Positions 10,358 to 22,567 of a stretch of DNA of 64,000 nt are shown here, one piece after another. The translations under genes and the position numbers were made by a program. This DNA comes from Haloarcula sp. H-GB4 (GTDB taxonomy: Archaea > Halobacteriota > Halobacteria > Halobacteriales > Haloarculaceae). The DNA is taken from the NCBI RefSeq assembly GCF_030848575.1, contig NZ_JAVDDX010000002.1:1240001-1304000 (forward strand), given 5' to 3'. Numbering within the stretch: the first letter of the stretch is position 1; each line of letters starts with the position of its first letter. A model generated the notes under the pieces. That model was not told the origin of the DNA. It saw only the letters and a program-made list of their open reading frames with translations, and searched no databases.

Positions 10358-12856
10358 ATGGCGACCACCGACGCCGGTGGCGAGCACGTCGAGCGCCCGC
10401 TGGTGACGCCGGAGTTCCTAGAGAACCGCCGCTACCAGACTGAACTGGCGGAGACGGCGAGCGCCGACCACACGCTCGTCTGTCTGCCGACCGGACTGGG
10501 CAAGACGACTGTCTCGCTGCTGGTGACCGCCGAGCGACTCGACGCCGTCGGCGGGAAGTCACTCATGCTGGCCCCGACGAAGCCGCTGGTCCAGCAACAC
10601 GCCGAGTTCTACCGCGAGGCGCTCGAACTGGACGACGAGGATGTCGTCGTGTTCACCGGCGAGGTCCGACCCGACGACCGGGCAGCGCTCTGGGACGACG
10701 CCCGCATCGTCATCGCGACGCCGCAGGTCGTTGAGAACGACCTCGTCGGTAACCGCATCTCCCTTGCTGACGTAACTCACTGTACCTTCGACGAGTGCCA
10801 CCGAGCGACTGGCGACTACGCCTACAACTACATCGCCGACCGCTACCACGCCGACGCCGAGAACCCGCTGGTAACGGGGATGAGCGCTTCCCCCGGGGAC
10901 GATGAAGAAGCCATCCTCGAAGTGTGTGAGAACCTCGGTCTGTCCGACGTTGCCGTGATGACCGAAAACGACGCCGACGTGGCCGAGTACACCCATGACA
11001 CCAGCGTCGACTGGAACCGCATCGAACTCCCCGAGGTTGTCGTGGAAATCCGCGACGCCATCAACGAGGTCATCAAAGACCGCCTGTCACAGTTGAAGGA
11101 ACTCGGCGTCACGAACAAGTCCTCGGCGGACATCTCCGAGCGCGAGATACAACAGATTCAGGGTCAACTCCGGGACCTGATGAACAACGACCAGAGCGAG
11201 GGGTATCAGGGGATGAGCCTCCTCGCCGAGATCCGCAAGCTCCGGACCGCCGTCACCTACGTCGAGACCCAGAGCGTCGAGTCCCTGCGGCGGTACTTCG
11301 AGCGCCTGAAGGAGGCTGCTCGCTCCTCCGGGGCATCGAAGGCCGATCAGCGCCTTGTAAGCGAGCCGAAAGTCCGCGAAGCGATGCGGAAAGCCGAGTC
11401 CTACAACGACCTGCACCCGAAGTTCCGCCAGACCCGGATGTTGCTCGCGGAGACGCTCGGTATCGAGAACGGCGAGCGCGTTATCGTTTTCACCGAGTCC
11501 CGCGATACGGCTGAGACGCTCGTTGACTTCCTCTCGGACCACTTCACGACACAGAAGTTCGTCGGCCAGAGCGACACCGACGGCAGCGAGGGGATGACAC
11601 AGACCCAGCAACAGGAGACGCTTGACCGGTTCCGCAACGGCGAGTTCGAGGTGCTCGTCTCGACATCCGTCGCCGAGGAGGGGCTGGACGTGCCAGAGGT
11701 TGACCTCGTACTGTTCTACGAACCAGTCCCGACCGCGATTCGGGCCATCCAGCGGAAGGGGCGGACCGGACGCCAGGCCGAGGGCCGCGTCGTCGTCCTG
11801 CTGGCCGAGGACACCCGCGACGAGGCGTACTTCTGGAAGGCCCGCAACGACCAGAAGCGGATGAAACGCGAGCTGAACGAACTCAAAAGCGTCGCCGGCG
11901 AACTGGAGGCCCGCCTCGACCAGACCGGTCTCGACGAGTACGAGGACGCCGAGGGGACCGCTTCGAGTGGAACCGACGAAGCGGAAACCGCCACACGGCA
12001 GTCGGACTCCACTGGAAACGGGAGGGGTAGCACAGCTAACAAGTCTGCCGATGGGAGCGACAGCGGGGACGGCCAAGCCGGGCTGGACGCCTTCGCGGCG
12101 GAGTCGTCTGCGCCGGACGACGAGGAGGCTGGTAGCGGAGAGCAGGACGAGGCGACCGACGACGAGGGAACGGTCGCCAGCGCCGGCCGCGACAGTGAGG
12201 ACGACCCCGTCGAAATCGTCGCCGACCAGCGGGAACTCGACTCGAACATCGCCCGGGACCTCTCGACACGGGACGGAATCGAGACCCGACTCGAAACGCT
12301 GGCCGTCGGCGACTATGTCCTCTCGGACCGGGTGGTCATCGAGCGAAAGACCGTCGCTGACTTCATGGACACGCTGACTGGCGGGGACCGGTCGATGTTC
12401 GAACAGGTCGGGGACGCCACACGCAACTACGGTCGGCCCGTCGTCATCATCGAAGGTGAGGACCTCTTCGGCGCGCGAAACGTCCATCACAAGGCGATTC
12501 AGGGGGCGCTCGCATCGCTGGCGGTCGATTTCGGCGCGAGCGTTCTCCGGACCAGCGACGAAGACGAGACCGCCGATCTGCTGGAAGTCATCGCCGGACG
12601 GGAACAGGAGGTAGCCGACCGCGAGGTGAGCGTCCACGGCGAAAAACAGTCCAAGACGCTCCCCGAGCAACAGGAGTACGTCGTCGCTTCAATCGCCGAA
12701 GTCGGGCCGGTGACCGCGCGCACGCTACTGGAAGCCTTCGGGAGCGTCGAAGCGGTGATGACCGCCGACAAAGACGACCTGCTGGACGTGTCCGGTATCG
12801 GCGATGTAACAGCCGACCGGATTCGGGAAGTCATCGCCAGCGACTACGAACCCTAG
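10358..12856 (+). CDS. hef: Hef: ATP-dependent helicase fused to XPF-type nuclease
   Basis: Processes stalled forks and branched DNA. The N-terminal SF2 helicase has LPTGLGKT (about residue 45), DECH (about 145), SVAEEGLDVPEVD and RKGRTGR. A Ser/Gly/Asp-rich linker spans about residues 530-615. The XPF nuclease core follows with ERKTVADFMDTL (about 662, the ERK-x3-D motif), then a C-terminal helix-hairpin-helix pair. Both halves look intact, unlike some archaea that keep only one. The ATG lies about 27 nt after a CTTAAC box, consistent with a leaderless message. The linker-coding DNA contains an ORB-like site (12006-12030). Confidence 0.96.
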   Translation: MATTDAGGEHVERPLVTPEFLENRRYQTELAETASADHTLVCLPTGLGKTTVSLLVTAERLDAVGGKSLMLAPTKPLVQQHAEFYREALELDDEDVVVFTGEVRPDDRAALWDDARIVIATPQVVENDLVGNRISLADVTHCTFDECHRATGDYAYNYIADRYHADAENPLVTGMSASPGDDEEAILEVCENLGLSDVAVMTENDADVAEYTHDTSVDWNRIELPEVVVEIRDAINEVIKDRLSQLKELGVTNKSSADISEREIQQIQGQLRDLMNNDQSEGYQGMSLLAEIRKLRTAVTYVETQSVESLRRYFERLKEAARSSGASKADQRLVSEPKVREAMRKAESYNDLHPKFRQTRMLLAETLGIENGERVIVFTESRDTAETLVDFLSDHFTTQKFVGQSDTDGSEGMTQTQQQETLDRFRNGEFEVLVSTSVAEEGLDVPEVDLVLFYEPVPTAIRAIQRKGRTGRQAEGRVVVLLAEDTRDEAYFWKARNDQKRMKRELNELKSVAGELEARLDQTGLDEYEDAEGTASSGTDEAETATRQSDSTGNGRGSTANKSADGSDSGDGQAGLDAFAAESSAPDDEEAGSGEQDEATDDEGTVASAGRDSEDDPVEIVADQRELDSNIARDLSTRDGIETRLETLAVGDYVLSDRVVIERKTVADFMDTLTGGDRSMFEQVGDATRNYGRPVVIIEGEDLFGARNVHHKAIQGALASLAVDFGASVLRTSDEDETADLLEVIAGREQEVADREVSVHGEKQSKTLPEQQEYVVASIAEVGPVTARTLLEAFGSVEAVMTADKDDLLDVSGIGDVTADRIREVIASDYEP
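12006..12030 (+). repeat. ORB-like sequence inside the hef linker
   Basis: Reads CTCCACTGGAAACGGGAGGGG followed by T. It resembles the origin boxes (TTCCACCGGAAAC, three bases, GGGGT), with one extra base before the G-string. It sits in the part of hef that encodes the variable linker. Whether Orc1 binds is unknown. Confidence 0.4.
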
Positions 12857-15088: not shown

Positions 15089-15775
15089 TCACTCGGAGCG
15101 GATGGTTTCCGGGACCTGGATGGAGTAGTGCCCATCTTCCTGCAGTGCAATGATGTACTCTTCGCGGTCGTACAGTTCCATCAAGTTCAGTTCGTACTGG
15201 CCGGGTTCCAGCACCTTGATCGACTCGAACTGGTCGTTGAGTTCCGCGCGCAGTTCCTCCAGATCGGGGCGGTCTTCCCGGTCTGGTTCCGTCGGAGGAT
15301 CAGGATCAGCACCGACAGGGCGGAACTGATGTTCAGATTCGGACGCGGACGGCGCGTCGGATGGGAGTTCGTCTGGCTCGACAATATCGCCACGAGCACT
15401 GGCCTGGGCTGAATCCTCAGTCGAAGATGTGGGGTCGGGTTCGGTCGACGGCGAACCGGATGTGTGGGATGGGTCACTCGGCTGTGGGTCAGCCGACCGG
15501 TCGGCGTCACGATGGGACTGCTCGGCGGGACGGTCCCCCTCCGTAGTGGAGCCACTGACGAAGTCACGCACCGAGGCGGCGGTCTTGCCGACAGTACGGG
15601 CGACAGTGCTGTCGGGTCCCGGTGGTTCCGGTGGCTCCGCATCCGGCGTCTCGGAGATATCTGCTCCCTCTGGCTGATACTGGAACTTGTTCCCGCCGCA
15701 GTTGGGACAGCCCGAGAGCATCTCCTTCGACCCGTCGTCGAAGCCACGGCCACAGTCCGTACACTGGTGGGGCAT
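15089..15775 (-). CDS. oapC: Origin-associated zinc-ribbon protein OapC
   Basis: 228 residues. The N-terminus has a zinc ribbon (CTDCGRGFDDG..GCPNCGG, residues 5-28) ending GGNKFQY. A Ser/Asp/Pro-rich disordered stretch covers about residues 35-170. The conserved C-terminal block (LNDQFESIKVLEPGQYELNL, then LMELYDREEYIIALQEDG) defines the family. In haloarchaea this gene, a DUF2073 gene and a GTPase gene sit as a conserved trio beside the orc1 origin, and the names oapA-C refer to that position. Biochemical function is not known to me. Its start overlaps the oapB stop by 1 nt. Confidence 0.88.
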   Translation of the reverse strand: MPHQCTDCGRGFDDGSKEMLSGCPNCGGNKFQYQPEGADISETPDAEPPEPPGPDSTVARTVGKTAASVRDFVSGSTTEGDRPAEQSHRDADRSADPQPSDPSHTSGSPSTEPDPTSSTEDSAQASARGDIVEPDELPSDAPSASESEHQFRPVGADPDPPTEPDREDRPDLEELRAELNDQFESIKVLEPGQYELNLMELYDREEYIIALQEDGHYSIQVPETIRSE

Positions 15776-16158
15776 TATTTGCGAGAGACGAGGGCGCTGA
15801 TTAGCGTTTCGTCCTTGTGGAGCGTCTCTATCTGGTTCGCCGGCCCGATGACTGTCAGCTTCTGGGTCGACTGTTTGCCCATCAGCCGCTCAAGGATGCT
15901 GGCGTCGGCGGCCTCGGACTTGGGGTAGGTCTCGATTTCGATGCCGTTGAACTCGTCGGGGCTAATCTCCGTCATCGTGACTTCGATCAGGCGGGACTCC
16001 TCGTCGGGGGAGAGTCCCTCTTCGAGGATGACAATATTGCCGTCACGAACCCCGTCGAGAATCATTCGGATCTTCTCCATCGAGGCCAGCCCCGCCATAC
16101 GTTCGCCACTGATGAGGTCGATCTGGACGCCGTCGTCTGGGTCTTTGACTTCTGCCAT
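15775..16158 (-). CDS. oapB: Origin-associated DUF2073 protein OapB
   Basis: 127 residues starting MAEVKDPDDGVQIDLISGER. The conserved core includes MEKIRMILDGVRDGNIVILE and LTVIGPANQIETLHKDETLI, typical of DUF2073, a small archaeal family encoded next to an Era-like GTPase. The ATG at 16158 lies 4 nt after the oapA stop, and the stop overlaps the oapC start, so the three genes must be translated from one message. Role unknown; coupling to the GTPase is likely from the constant adjacency. Confidence 0.88.
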   Translation of the reverse strand: MAEVKDPDDGVQIDLISGERMAGLASMEKIRMILDGVRDGNIVILEEGLSPDEESRLIEVTMTEISPDEFNGIEIETYPKSEAADASILERLMGKQSTQKLTVIGPANQIETLHKDETLISALVSRK

Positions 16159-16162
16159 TATA

Positions 16163-16804
16163 TCACCCGAAGTACTCCGCGATTTTATCGTAGACTTCGT
16201 CCATGTTGTCGCCCTCAAGCGCTGACAGCGGAATCGTCTCGTGCTGTGGGTAGGCGTTTCGAATGCGTTGAACCGAAGACTCCTCCAGATCGATCTTGTT
16301 TGCGAGAATCAACACCGGAAGGTCCTGACTCTCGATGATCCCGATGAGCATGGTGTTGACCTGCGTGAACGGATCGGTTGCGGAGTCGAGCACGTAAATG
16401 ACGCCGTCGACGTCCTCGCGGAGCCAGTGCATCGCTTCGGCGACACCCTCGGTCGCTTCGCGGGAGCGGCGGACGGCGTCGTCTTTCTCCATGTCGTGTT
16501 CGAGGAACTCGGTGTAATCGACCTTCGTCGTCACGCCCGGCGTGTCGACAATGTCGATTGTCACTTTCTTCCCGTCGCGTTCGATTTCGACGTTCTCCTT
16601 TCGGCGCGCACGACGAGTCTCGTGGGGAACGTGACTCTCCGGGCCGACGGCGTCGCCGGTCCAGTCTCGTGCAATGCGGTTCGCCAACGTCGTCTTGCCG
16701 GCGTTTGGCGGGCCGTAAATCCCGATACGCTTCGGATCCTCTTCGGAGAACAGTGTCGATGCCGCACGTGAAATGCTATCTTTGAGGTTTGTTAACAATC
16801 CCAT
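16163..16804 (-). CDS. oapA: Origin-associated Era-like GTPase OapA
   Basis: 213 residues. GTPase motifs: G1 GPPNAGKT near residue 30, G3 DTPG near 87, G4 NKID near 168 and SAL (G5) near 192. The N-terminal helix (LKDSISRAASTLFSEED) precedes the G domain. No RNA-binding KH domain is present, unlike bacterial Era. It is the first gene of the oapABC operon, which reads away from the origin and is divergent from orc1. Involvement in replication control is inferred from conserved position only. Confidence 0.9.
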   Translation of the reverse strand: MGLLTNLKDSISRAASTLFSEEDPKRIGIYGPPNAGKTTLANRIARDWTGDAVGPESHVPHETRRARRKENVEIERDGKKVTIDIVDTPGVTTKVDYTEFLEHDMEKDDAVRRSREATEGVAEAMHWLREDVDGVIYVLDSATDPFTQVNTMLIGIIESQDLPVLILANKIDLEESSVQRIRNAYPQHETIPLSALEGDNMDEVYDKIAEYFG

Positions 16805-17040
16805 CCTATCCTCCCGCCGCCCGGAGTCGTCCGGTATGGCGGCTCTGCCCGTAAAAGATAGGCGAATTCACTTAAGCCTACGTCAGACATGAGTTTTCTT
16901 TTTGACACGAGGGGGCATAGCATAGTATAGATCAGCGTGCGGGTGTTACTACGTACAAGGTCGGTGCAGGTGGCGGGGACCTGTTCGGGTGGAGCCCGAT
17001 CATCCGAAACCTGACGATCAGGAGTGGCGCGTCCCATCCT

Positions 17041-17070
17041 AGCCCCCCACCCCTTCATTTCAGGTGGAAC
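17041..17070 (-). repeat. ORB, left inverted copy
   Basis: On the minus strand: GTTCCACCTGAAATGAAGGG, continuing into GTGGGGGG. It matches the right copy in the ORB core and G-string. Its G-string points toward oapA. A further G-rich motif (CTGGGGAGGGGTGGGAG, 17081-17097) extends the inverted repeat inward. Confidence 0.88.
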
Positions 17071-17157
17071 GCCACATACCCCTGGGGAGGGGTGGGAGAA
17101 TTGCCAGTCGAATCGGGAGCGCACCAGTTGTTCAGATCGGTGCGATTCGTGACTTCG

Positions 17158-17207
17158 CTAGCTAGAGCGGCCTAGACACTAGAAAACCGTACACTAGCCC
17201 CTACTAG
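17158..17207. repeat. Cluster of six CTAG sites in the origin
   Basis: CTAG occurs at 17158, 17162, 17172, 17179, 17194 and 17204, with two more at 17039 and 17269. All eight lie between or at the edges of the inverted ORBs. CTAG is generally rare in haloarchaeal DNA, and many haloarchaea carry an orphan CTAG methyltransferase, so this density looks selected. Confidence 0.8.
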
Positions 17208-17286
17208 CTGTTTGTTTTATCTGGTGCGGGTTTGGTTTATGAGATACTGTATTAAATCTTTCCTCTTTCTAGAGGTCATTATAGAT
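17208..17286. other. AT-rich candidate DNA-unwinding element
   Basis: The segment between the CTAG cluster and the right ORB arm contains TGTTTGTTTTATC, TTTGGTTTATGAG and ACTGTATTAAATC, markedly more AT-rich than its surroundings. It lies between inverted ORBs, the place expected for initial melting. No experiment supports it here. Confidence 0.65.
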
Positions 17287-17318
17287 CTTCCCACCCCCTC
17301 CCCCCGTGGCTGTTTCCC

Positions 17319-17349
17319 GTTCCACCGGAAACAAAGGGGTGGGGGGGTC
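17319..17349 (+). repeat. ORB, right inverted copy
   Basis: Plus strand: GTTCCACCGGAAACAAAGGG, continuing into GTGGGGGGG. Its G-string points toward orc1. The inner flank (CCCACCCCCTCCCCCC, 17290-17305) is the inverted partner of the G-rich motif beside the left copy, so the repeat arms are about 55-65 nt each. Confidence 0.9.
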
Positions 17350-17748: not shown

Positions 17749-19323
17749 ATGACTGACGAAAGCGATAACTCGGCCCCGAAATCCGATCCGTCGACGACAG
17801 AGACGTCGAACGAGACTGACGGGTCCGACGGGCAACTCGACATCGAAACAGACTCCGGGACATCGACTGGCCCGTCCGATCTTGACGACGTTATCCTCGA
17901 CAATCTCGATGCGGGGTCCGACAATCCCTCCGACGAGGCGTCCCGTGGCCTGTTCGACGACCTTCTCGAAGGGGAACCCATTTTCGAGAATAAAGAGGTC
18001 CTTCGTCCCTCGTACACACCACATAAACTCCCCCACCGCGAGGAGCAGATCAACAATATGGCGACGATTCTCGTTACTGCCTTGCGCGGTGATACGCCGT
18101 CGAACATCCTTATTTATGGCAAGACGGGAACGGGGAAAACCGCGTCCGCGAAGTTCGTCAGTGAGGAACTCGAAACGACCTCACAGAAGTATGAGGTCCC
18201 CTGTGAGGTCGAGTACATCAACTGCGAGGTGACCGACACCCAGTACCGCGTGCTGGCGCAGCTCGCGAACAAGTTCATCGACAAGAACGCACAGCTCATC
18301 GACGACCGCATCGCTGAACTCGAGGAGCTTCAATCACAGGCACGCGAGAACACGGCTGCACTCGAAGAGACGGCGTTTAATTCCGTTGACGATGTCGAAG
18401 CCGAAATCGAGTCGCTGGAAGCCGACAAGTCGGAGTTCGAGGAAGTCCCGATGACGGGGTGGCCAACAGATCGTGTCTACAGTTCCTTTTTCGATGCCGT
18501 CGACTACCATGAGCGCGTGGTCGTCATCATGCTCGACGAGATCGACAAGCTCGTCGAGAAAAGCGGTGACGATACCCTGTACAACCTCTCTCGGATGAAC
18601 TCTGAACTGGAGAACTCCCGGGTCTCGATTATGGGCATCTCGAACGACCTGAAGTTCACCGATTTCCTCGACCCTCGGGTCAAGTCAAGTCTCGGCGAGG
18701 AGGAGATCGTCTTTCCGCCCTACGACGCGAATCAGCTCCGGGACATCCTCCAGGCACGCTCGGACGTGGCATTCAAAGGCGACGCACTCACCGAGGATGT
18801 CATCCCGCTGTGTGCGGCCTTCGCCGCACAAGAACACGGGGACGCCCGGCGCGCGCTCGACCTCCTCCGGACCGCCGGCGAACTTGCTGAACGGGACCAG
18901 ACGGACAATGTTCTTGAAGACCACGTCCGCCAGGCTCAGGAGAAAATCGAACTCGACCGCGTTGTGGAGGTCGTCCGGACGCTCCCCACGCAGTCGAAGA
19001 TTGTCCTTTTCGCTATCATCCTCCTGGAAAAGAATGGTGTTCACAACATCAACACCGGTGAGGTGTTCAACATCTACAAGAACCTCTGTGAGGAGATTGA
19101 CGCCGATATCCTGACACAGCGTCGCGTCACCGACCTCATCTCCGAACTGGATATGCTTGGCATCGTCAACGCTGTCGTCGTCTCGAAGGGCCGCTACGGC
19201 CGGACGAAAGAAATCTCGCTGTCAGTTCCAACCGAAGAGACGGAGGCAGTGCTTTTGTCTGATTCGCGACTCGGCGATATCGACGATGTCCAGCCGTTCG
19301 TTCAGGCCCGGTTCGACAACTGA
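17749..19323 (+). CDS. orc1: Origin-binding initiator Orc1/Cdc6
   Basis: 524 residues. Binds ORBs and loads MCM. An acidic, disordered N-terminus covers about residues 1-60. The AAA+ module has Walker A IYGKTGTGKTASAK near 120-133, Walker B VIMLDEIDKLV near 260, and sensor 1 GISNDLKF near 295. An insertion with coiled-coil character (about 175-235, ELEELQSQARENTAALEET) separates Walker A and B, longer than in Sulfolobus Orc1. The C-terminal winged helix (QRRVTDLISELDMLGIVNA) recognises the origin. Its adjacency to inverted ORBs and oapABC identifies it as the main chromosomal orc1. Confidence 0.96.
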   Translation: MTDESDNSAPKSDPSTTETSNETDGSDGQLDIETDSGTSTGPSDLDDVILDNLDAGSDNPSDEASRGLFDDLLEGEPIFENKEVLRPSYTPHKLPHREEQINNMATILVTALRGDTPSNILIYGKTGTGKTASAKFVSEELETTSQKYEVPCEVEYINCEVTDTQYRVLAQLANKFIDKNAQLIDDRIAELEELQSQARENTAALEETAFNSVDDVEAEIESLEADKSEFEEVPMTGWPTDRVYSSFFDAVDYHERVVVIMLDEIDKLVEKSGDDTLYNLSRMNSELENSRVSIMGISNDLKFTDFLDPRVKSSLGEEEIVFPPYDANQLRDILQARSDVAFKGDALTEDVIPLCAAFAAQEHGDARRALDLLRTAGELAERDQTDNVLEDHVRQAQEKIELDRVVEVVRTLPTQSKIVLFAIILLEKNGVHNINTGEVFNIYKNLCEEIDADILTQRRVTDLISELDMLGIVNAVVVSKGRYGRTKEISLSVPTEETEAVLLSDSRLGDIDDVQPFVQARFDN

Positions 19324-20910: not shown

Positions 20911-20998
20911 CCTATCTCGGATTGCTGACAGCGGGATATCAATCTTGTGACGGCTGTCGGTCCGCTATCCTTTTGCCCACAGACACGGAGTGTGGAAC

Positions 20999-22567
20999 GT
21001 GCCTCTGGAGACGCCGGCACGCATCGTCAGCGAACTCGCGAGCCGCGGCTACAACGCGGAACGTGAGGCAGTGACTCGGATCGCTGACACGCGGGACCCA
21101 TCGTCGACGCTAGAACGCGCACTCGAAACGCTCCCCGATGAGGCGCTGAAGCTGACAACCGATCACGTCGAATCTGTGGTTAAAGCGATAGAAAGCGGCG
21201 ACGGAACGCCGAGTACCGAACCAGACCACGGAACCGAAACGACCGACGCTCCGACTCATACACACCCGCCCGTTTCAACTGGAACCGACTCGACCACGTC
21301 GACTGAACCGGGTGCATCTGTTCCACCTGAAACGGGGGGGTCACGGGATGTAGACACATCTCTCCGAGCTATCGACGTTGCGAACGATATGACCGGCCAG
21401 TCCACTGGAACCGGGGAGTACTCGGACTTCGTCTCGGTGTTCCGGGATCGCTACGAGAAACTGGCGGGCAAACTGCGCGGCAGAGTGAACCACCGGCCGA
21501 CCGACGCAATCGAGAACATGGGCGGCGGCAGCGACGCAGCGCTGATCGGCATGGTCTCTGATATCCGCTCGACCGCCAGCGGCCACTGGCTGGTCGAACT
21601 GGAAGACACGAACGGGACCTTCCCCTGTTTGGTGATGAAAGACCGCCCTATCGCCGACCTCGTCCAGCAGTTGCTCATGGACGAGGTCATCGCCGTCGAG
21701 GGAACGCTGGCCGACGATGCTGGCATTCTGTTCGTGGACTCACTATACTTCCCGGACGTGCCACGAACGCACAGCCCCTCGACCGCTGACCGCCACGTTC
21801 AGGCGGCGCTCATTTCCGATGTCCACGTCGGCAGTCAGGAGTTCATGGAGGACGCCTGGCATCGCTTTACCGACTGGCTCCACACCTCCGAAGCCGAAAC
21901 TGTCGAGTACCTGCTCATCGCCGGCGACATGGTGGAGGGCGTCGGCATCTATCCCGAGCAGGATAAGGAACTGGACATCATCGACATCTACGACCAGTAC
22001 CGCGCGTTCTCGGAGTACCTCAAGGAAGTCCCGGCTGACATGGAGATCCGGATGATCCCGGGCAACCACGACGCCGTTCGGCTGGCCGAACCCCAGCCGG
22101 GCTTCGACGAGGAGCTCCGGGACATCATGAGTGCCCACGACGCCCAAGTCCATTCAAACCCCTCGCTGGTCACTGTTGAGGGCGTCACGGTGCTGATGTA
22201 CCACGGCGTCTCGCTTGACGAAGTCATCGCTGAACTCCCAGATGAGGAGGCCAGCTACGAGGAACCACATAAGGCGATGTACCAGCTCCTGAAGAAGCGC
22301 CACGTCGCGCCCCAGTATGGCGGCCACACTCGGCTCGCCCCTGAGGACCGCGATTATCTGGCAATGGAGGAAGTCCCCGATGTGTTCCACACTGGCCACG
22401 TCCACAAGCTCGGCTGGGGCGAGTATCATAACGTCGTTGCGCTGAACTCCGGCTGCTGGCAGGCCCAGACTGAATTCCAGAAAAGCGTCAACATCGACCC
22501 TGACGCCGGTTTCGCGCCGATTCTGGATCTGGATACGCTGGATATGACGGTCCGGAAGTTCAGCTGA
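20999..22567 (+). CDS. polD1: DNA polymerase D small subunit (DP1), 3'-5' exonuclease
   Basis: Proofreading partner of DP2. From the GTG at 20999 (MPLETPARIVSELASRGYN) it is 522 residues; a GTG at 20990 adds three. Domains in order: N-terminal helical domain; Thr/Ser/Pro-rich linker at about residues 75-135; OB fold (about 170-250); calcineurin-like phosphoesterase with ISDVHVGS, GDMVEGVG, IPGNHDA and GHVHKLG, all metal ligands of the MRE11-like nuclease present. It lies 1.7 kb from orc1, while its large subunit is about 16 kb away. The linker-coding DNA holds an ORB-like site (21320-21342). Confidence 0.95.
   Translation: MPLETPARIVSELASRGYNAEREAVTRIADTRDPSSTLERALETLPDEALKLTTDHVESVVKAIESGDGTPSTEPDHGTETTDAPTHTHPPVSTGTDSTTSTEPGASVPPETGGSRDVDTSLRAIDVANDMTGQSTGTGEYSDFVSVFRDRYEKLAGKLRGRVNHRPTDAIENMGGGSDAALIGMVSDIRSTASGHWLVELEDTNGTFPCLVMKDRPIADLVQQLLMDEVIAVEGTLADDAGILFVDSLYFPDVPRTHSPSTADRHVQAALISDVHVGSQEFMEDAWHRFTDWLHTSEAETVEYLLIAGDMVEGVGIYPEQDKELDIIDIYDQYRAFSEYLKEVPADMEIRMIPGNHDAVRLAEPQPGFDEELRDIMSAHDAQVHSNPSLVTVEGVTVLMYHGVSLDEVIAELPDEEASYEEPHKAMYQLLKKRHVAPQYGGHTRLAPEDRDYLAMEEVPDVFHTGHVHKLGWGEYHNVVALNSGCWQAQTEFQKSVNIDPDAGFAPILDLDTLDMTVRKFS
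21320..21342 (+). repeat. ORB-like sequence with G-string inside the PolD small-subunit gene
   Basis: Reads GTTCCACCTGAAACGGGGGG plus GTC. The left half is identical to the left origin ORB and the spacing to GGGGT agrees with the right origin ORB. It encodes part of the variable linker (VPPETGGSR). A poorer relative (TCCACTGGAACCGGGGAG) lies at 21401-21418. Confidence 0.55.

Follow-up and report, generated by a model that had tools for sequence, protein, structure and literature searches.

The CTAG palindromes described here form a dense field between the inverted ORBs of a haloarchaeal oriC1. We consider it likely, with a probability of roughly 60%, that this cluster has been selected as a cis element of the origin, namely a field of m4CTAG lying beside the unwinding region and written by a Zim-type methyltransferase. 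The observations behind this reading are the position and enrichment of the sites, their class-wide conservation, the turnover of their individual positions and their co-occurrence with a methyltransferase homologue.

Architecture of the origin

The window, meaning the whole 64-kb stretch of DNA that was analysed, represents positions 1,240,001-1,304,000 of contig 2 in a genome of 4.19 Mb. A first-pass annotation had recognized a replication origin in it and, judged by its sequence, the locus is a haloarchaeal oriC1: Orc1, OapABC and inverted ORBs with the halophile G-string are all present. The conserved Orc1/Cdc6 gene lies on one side and OapABC on the other, and an AT-rich stretch separates the ORBs (Table 1). 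The Orc1 protein is 97% identical to those of the nearest relatives, which are Haloarcula species. Two genes flanking those of the origin (10358-12856 and 20990-22567) have sequence features suggestive of a Hef-like helicase/nuclease and of a protein resembling the DNA polymerase D small subunit. At its right end the CTAG field overlaps the stretch where the origin duplex is least stable.

Table 1. Features of the oriC1 region, with positions given in window coordinates.
Feature	Position	Strand	Basis
OapC, origin-associated protein	15089..15775	-	PF09845, E 7.7e-28
OapB, origin-associated protein (start codon estimated)	15775..16158	-	PF09846, E 1.5e-42
OapA-position GTPase	16163..16804	-	MMR_HSR1 / small_GTP; divergent neighbour of orc1, kept in relatives
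CTAG adjoining the left ORB at its outer (G-string) end; not in the inter-ORB interval	17039..17042	.	Sequence
Left ORB with halophile G-string	17044..17069	-	Sequence; H. hispanica dissection (PMC3936714)
Inner G-rich inverted repeat, left arm (corresponding to enhancer element III of H. hispanica)	17084..17092	+	Sequence; function from PMC3936714
Dense CTAG field, six palindromes (17158, 17162, 17172, 17179, 17194, 17204)	17158..17207	.	Sequence, shuffles
Least stable origin DNA, probable duplex unwinding region	17200..17299	.	Nearest-neighbour stability profile, z ~4
Conserved central element CGGGTTTGGTTTA...TTAAATCTTT, CTAG-flanked at conserved positions in relatives	17227..17261	+	Alignment, offsets
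Right-hand CTAG (+41/42 from the central element), one of a small number of sites with conserved position	17269..17272	.	Sequence, alignment, offsets
Inner G-rich inverted repeat, right arm (counterpart of element IV)	17294..17303	+	Sequence; PMC3936714
Right ORB with halophile G-string	17320..17345	+	Sequence
Orc1/Cdc6 initiator	17749..19323	+	Cdc6_C, Cdc6_lid, ORC1-type NCBIfam equivalog

The oriC1 of H. hispanica, as described in PMC3936714 and PMC3528665, possesses the same G-string ORBs, inner G-rich inverted repeat and AT-rich center, and its essential parts have been mapped by mutation. PMC3936714 demonstrates autonomous replication, and thus origin activity, for this oriC1, and characterizes the ORBs and their G-strings as essential and the inner G-rich inverted repeat as an enhancer. 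The term CTAG is absent from the text of PMC3528665, and no mutation of the H. hispanica CTAG sites is reported in the passages of PMC3936714 consulted.

Distribution of CTAG sites in the window and genome

The first-pass annotation had listed six CTAG sites within 50 bases and two more at 17039 and 17269; a recount returned all eight start coordinates exactly. It had further placed all of them within the inverted ORB repeat, which is correct for seven, the site at 17039 touching the left ORB from the outside. Elsewhere in the window CTAG is depleted, as had been remarked; the 64 kb as a whole contain 54 sites where dinucleotide shuffles lead one to expect 111. Compared with these 54, the 250-bp inter-ORB interval holds seven. 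When each region was dinucleotide-shuffled 5,000 times, neither the 944-bp intergenic region as a whole nor positions 17100-17300 ever produced six CTAG in 50 bp; the 66-bp core did so in 0.02% of its shuffles.

At eight separate places in the 4.19-Mb genome three CTAGs follow one another with no gap above 25 bp; only at the origin do such chains overlap into a six-site run, which is the densest in the genome. On other contigs, three of the seven remaining chains precede orc/cdc6 genes, at a distance of approximately 280-420 bp from the matched start. The genome contains 11 orc/cdc6 genes; besides oriC1, the upstream DNA of three of these carries four CTAGs within 150 bp, and that of one carries three. 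The four chains away from orc genes are located at G000:C3:122103, G000:C2:374099, G000:C2:802161, and G000:C4:217563. From sequence features, one of them presumably lies directly downstream of a ParA-like gene pair, and the other three between what we take to be ordinary genes, in one case a sugar ABC transporter ATPase-like gene and an IclR-type regulator.

CTAG at oriC1 across the haloarchaea

Of 80 named oriC1 loci, 74 possess a recognizable ORB pair, and in these relatives as in the window the CTAGs lie mainly inside it. Among the 61 methyltransferase-positive origins, CTAG is the most enriched of the 136 strand-symmetric 4-mers between the ORBs, occurring at 18.3/kb inside the pair versus 1.2/kb in the adjoining intergenic DNA; this is 4.9x the value expected from base composition and 15.6x that of the adjoining DNA. 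Each of the 29 Haloarcula origins in which an ORB pair is present carries 3-8 sites, and eight GTDB families, sampled throughout the order, have densities of 11-22/kb inside and 0.4-1.5/kb outside. The cluster recurs at orthologous non-coding positions of several genomes. A density at oriC1 equal to the genome background in related species, the outcome that the annotation had named as contrary to its proposal, was not encountered; haloarchaea in general show clustering at oriC1.

GATC is not clustered in the inter-ORB interval (0.6x). A general enrichment of TA-containing palindromes was also considered and rejected, since in methyltransferase-positive origins it does not occur to a comparable degree. 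Two forms of the ORB-to-ORB interval exist: a shorter one of approximately 160-215 bp, seen in Halorubrum, Halobaculum, and taxa related to them, and a longer one of approximately 225-290 bp, seen in Haloarcula and many others. The larger left CTAG field goes with the longer form.

Pairwise comparison of 14 close relatives reveals that CTAG is conserved at 76%, versus 44% for all 4-mers. Its rank is 10th among 116 4-mers, so that conservation extends to other elements of the interval. Between genera no alignment of the left field is possible, yet CTAGs persist there. Next to the conserved central element CGGGTTTGGTT...TTAAATCTTT, sites recur at offsets of -9/-6 and +41. A field that persists while its sites shift, with few recurrent offsets, looks like the product of selection for several sites within the field, with a few favored positions. 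The central element itself (CGGGTTTGGTTTA...TTAAATCTTT) is kept across genera; methyltransferase-negative Halorubrum possess an altered form which lacks the flanking CTAG.

The methyltransferase and its co-occurrence with the cluster

The CTAG methyltransferase, which the first-pass annotation had described as a frequent orphan enzyme of haloarchaea, has a putative counterpart in this genome. On the same contig as the origin (G000:C2:554,718-555,743) is a gene for a 342-residue N6_N4_Mtase protein (PF01555) exhibiting the subtype-beta motif order, with SPPY before DPFLGTG. Its neighbors are a TFIIB-like gene and a 3-dehydroquinase gene, and among the adjoining genes there is no restriction gene. 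The protein is assigned by homology to the CTAG (Zim, HVO_0794, HOG1170) family, with CTAG as its putative specificity. Enzymes of the Zim family give m4CTAG in H. volcanii (PMC5867850) and Haloarcula marismortui (PMC6606915), and in the latter 89% of the CTAG sites across the genome were detected as m4C (PMC6606915). The sites of the present strain are presumably methylated too.

Methyltransferase homologues were looked for in the genomes whose origins were studied. Across 221 haloarchaeal oriC1 loci, inter-ORB CTAG amounts to 15.1/kb where a Zim homologue is present and 1.8/kb where it is not, and at least two inter-ORB sites are found in 141 of 184 origins with the methyltransferase versus 2 of 37 without. 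The cluster thus co-occurs with the enzyme across genomes. The raw P values for this association (8e-9; 1e-16 in the 221) are inflated by relatedness, and tree-based tests were therefore used. The origin set was enlarged after earlier results had been seen, so that the following P values do not stem from a single planned test: PGLS on 221 origins gave 0.014 for counts, 0.0036 for density, and 0.00006 for square-root counts, and on 166 origins 0.012 to 0.09, with 0.22 inside one family alone. At 221 origins the association thus survives tree correction, with significance on each of the three scales. Independent pairs in the 221 origins numbered 2.8 in the same direction and 0.0 in the opposite one; the sign test is not significant, the pairs being too few, and losses of the methyltransferase are rare (~10 changes on the tree). 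The smaller sets of 76 and 166 origins gave no decision by independent pairs either. The paucity of losses is a counterpoint to the proposed link, though no independent pair ran against it. Halorubrum vacuolatum, Haloprofundus, and Halogeometricum keep the methyltransferase with 0-1 site, which means that the field is not obligatory.

Alternative explanations

One alternative is that CTAG belongs to the recognition sequence of a protein by which the origin is bent or coated, its methylation being incidental. The few CTAGs that hold their place beside the central element (-9/-6, +41) are in accord with this, as is the over-representation of the doublets CTAGNCTAG, of which 27 were observed versus 12 expected. 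Most sites, however, move between genera while the field stays; no clear phasing was evident when fixed spacing or helical phase was looked for, just a weak 10.5-bp signal; and the sites are nearly missing where the methyltransferase is missing. We regard such a protein site as an unlikely explanation. It is rather unlikely, too, that CTAG methylation serves transcription by controlling the promoter of orc1 or oapA or of an origin RNA. Although start sites in Haloferax lucertense have an excess of CTAG upstream of them (PMC11001535), the field lies approximately 540-590 bp from orc1 and more than 350 bp from oapA, within the ORB pair, and this placement holds in genera with other intergenic lengths.

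Since the field adjoins the least stable DNA, CTAG could act simply as weakly stacked DNA that eases opening of the duplex. The other palindromes between the ORBs of methyltransferase-positive origins make this very unlikely, GTAC and TTAA standing at about 1.0x and TATA and ATAT at 1.4-1.5x (TATA 1.5x) against 4.9x for CTAG; moreover, methyltransferase-negative origins manage without CTAG and are TATA-rich instead. A passive origin of the cluster, whereby a CTAG-removing process is inactive in an AT-rich non-coding stretch and the sites are neutral, would agree with the depletion of CTAG in the window and with an origin interval that is AT-richer than the window. It would predict an enrichment of approximately 1x rather than that found, and the adjoining intergenic DNA is not enriched. 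Because CTAG is also conserved above the average 4-mer of the interval, the present counts disfavor neutrality, and we judge this account to be highly improbable.

Proposed mechanism

The preferred reading is that of a selected m4CTAG field: the cluster is present in most relatives with the enzyme and nearly gone where the enzyme has been lost, which points to a methylation-linked control of replication. We surmise that methylation affects initiation in the following manner. The field would be fully methylated before initiation, and passage of the fork would render it hemimethylated; the methylation state might then alter how readily the origin is opened or reloaded by Orc1 and MCM, either through a reader protein or directly. 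A direct effect is conceivable because N4-methylcytosine weakens its own base pair, as is known from general chemistry, though a literature search yielded no paper on weaker m4C pairing. To our knowledge no reader protein for hemimethylated CTAG has been described. The more specific proposal, that initiation at oriC1 is controlled by the m4C state of the field acting directly on melting beside the central element and with no SeqA-like reader, is put forward tentatively, as a possibility that we consider doubtful. Haloarchaea are polyploid, and strict once-per-cycle timing may for this reason matter less.

Comparison with known systems

The role of the widespread haloarchaeal CTAG methyltransferase has been described as unknown (PMC6606915, PMC6471742). 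The finding is known in kind: in haloarchaea possessing an orphan m4C methyltransferase, Blow et al. 2016 (PMC4752239, Fig. 6D) described clusters of CTAG upstream of orc1/cdc6 and put forward a role in replication. The motif, the kind of locus, the methyltransferase family and the proposed role are the same, and the present locus is a further instance. The body text of that paper has m4CATG and orc6/cdc1 where the figure legend has CTAG and orc1/cdc6, a slip which may hide the result from text searches. Whereas density was plotted there over 50 kb, the sites are here placed between the ORBs at base resolution; further additions are the scale (counts in 221 origins), the turnover of sites, and their tree-corrected loss from lineages that lack the methyltransferase. 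The data tie the CTAG methyltransferase to one precise element of oriC1.

In H. volcanii, Ouellette et al. 2018 (PMC5867850) observed raised CTAG density at oriC2 only, and a strain lacking the restriction-modification genes, including that for the CTAG methyltransferase, exhibited no growth defect (PMC5867850). As CTAG is enriched there only at oriC2, this deletion is a weak test, and the negative result may be uninformative. No test of the replication-control idea where the CTAG cluster is strong was found in the literature. Haloarcula hispanica, with its mapped oriC1 assays, is an organism suited to deciding the matter.

A further parallel is E. coli oriC with Dam/GATC and SeqA, where the palindromes of an orphan-type methyltransferase are likewise clustered inside the origin, next to the initiator sites and the unwinding region. 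The first-pass annotation had drawn on bacterial GATC as well and had offered, as its own inference, that methylation might time re-initiation here, an idea in print since 2016 (PMC4752239). We know of no methylation-based origin control established in archaea. The haloarchaeal system differs in that the modification is m4C rather than m6A, that Orc1/MCM take the place of DnaA/DnaB, and that it has no known reader of the hemimethylated state. Unlike GATC in the Dam system, haloarchaeal CTAG is rare genome-wide, which argues against a role in mismatch repair.
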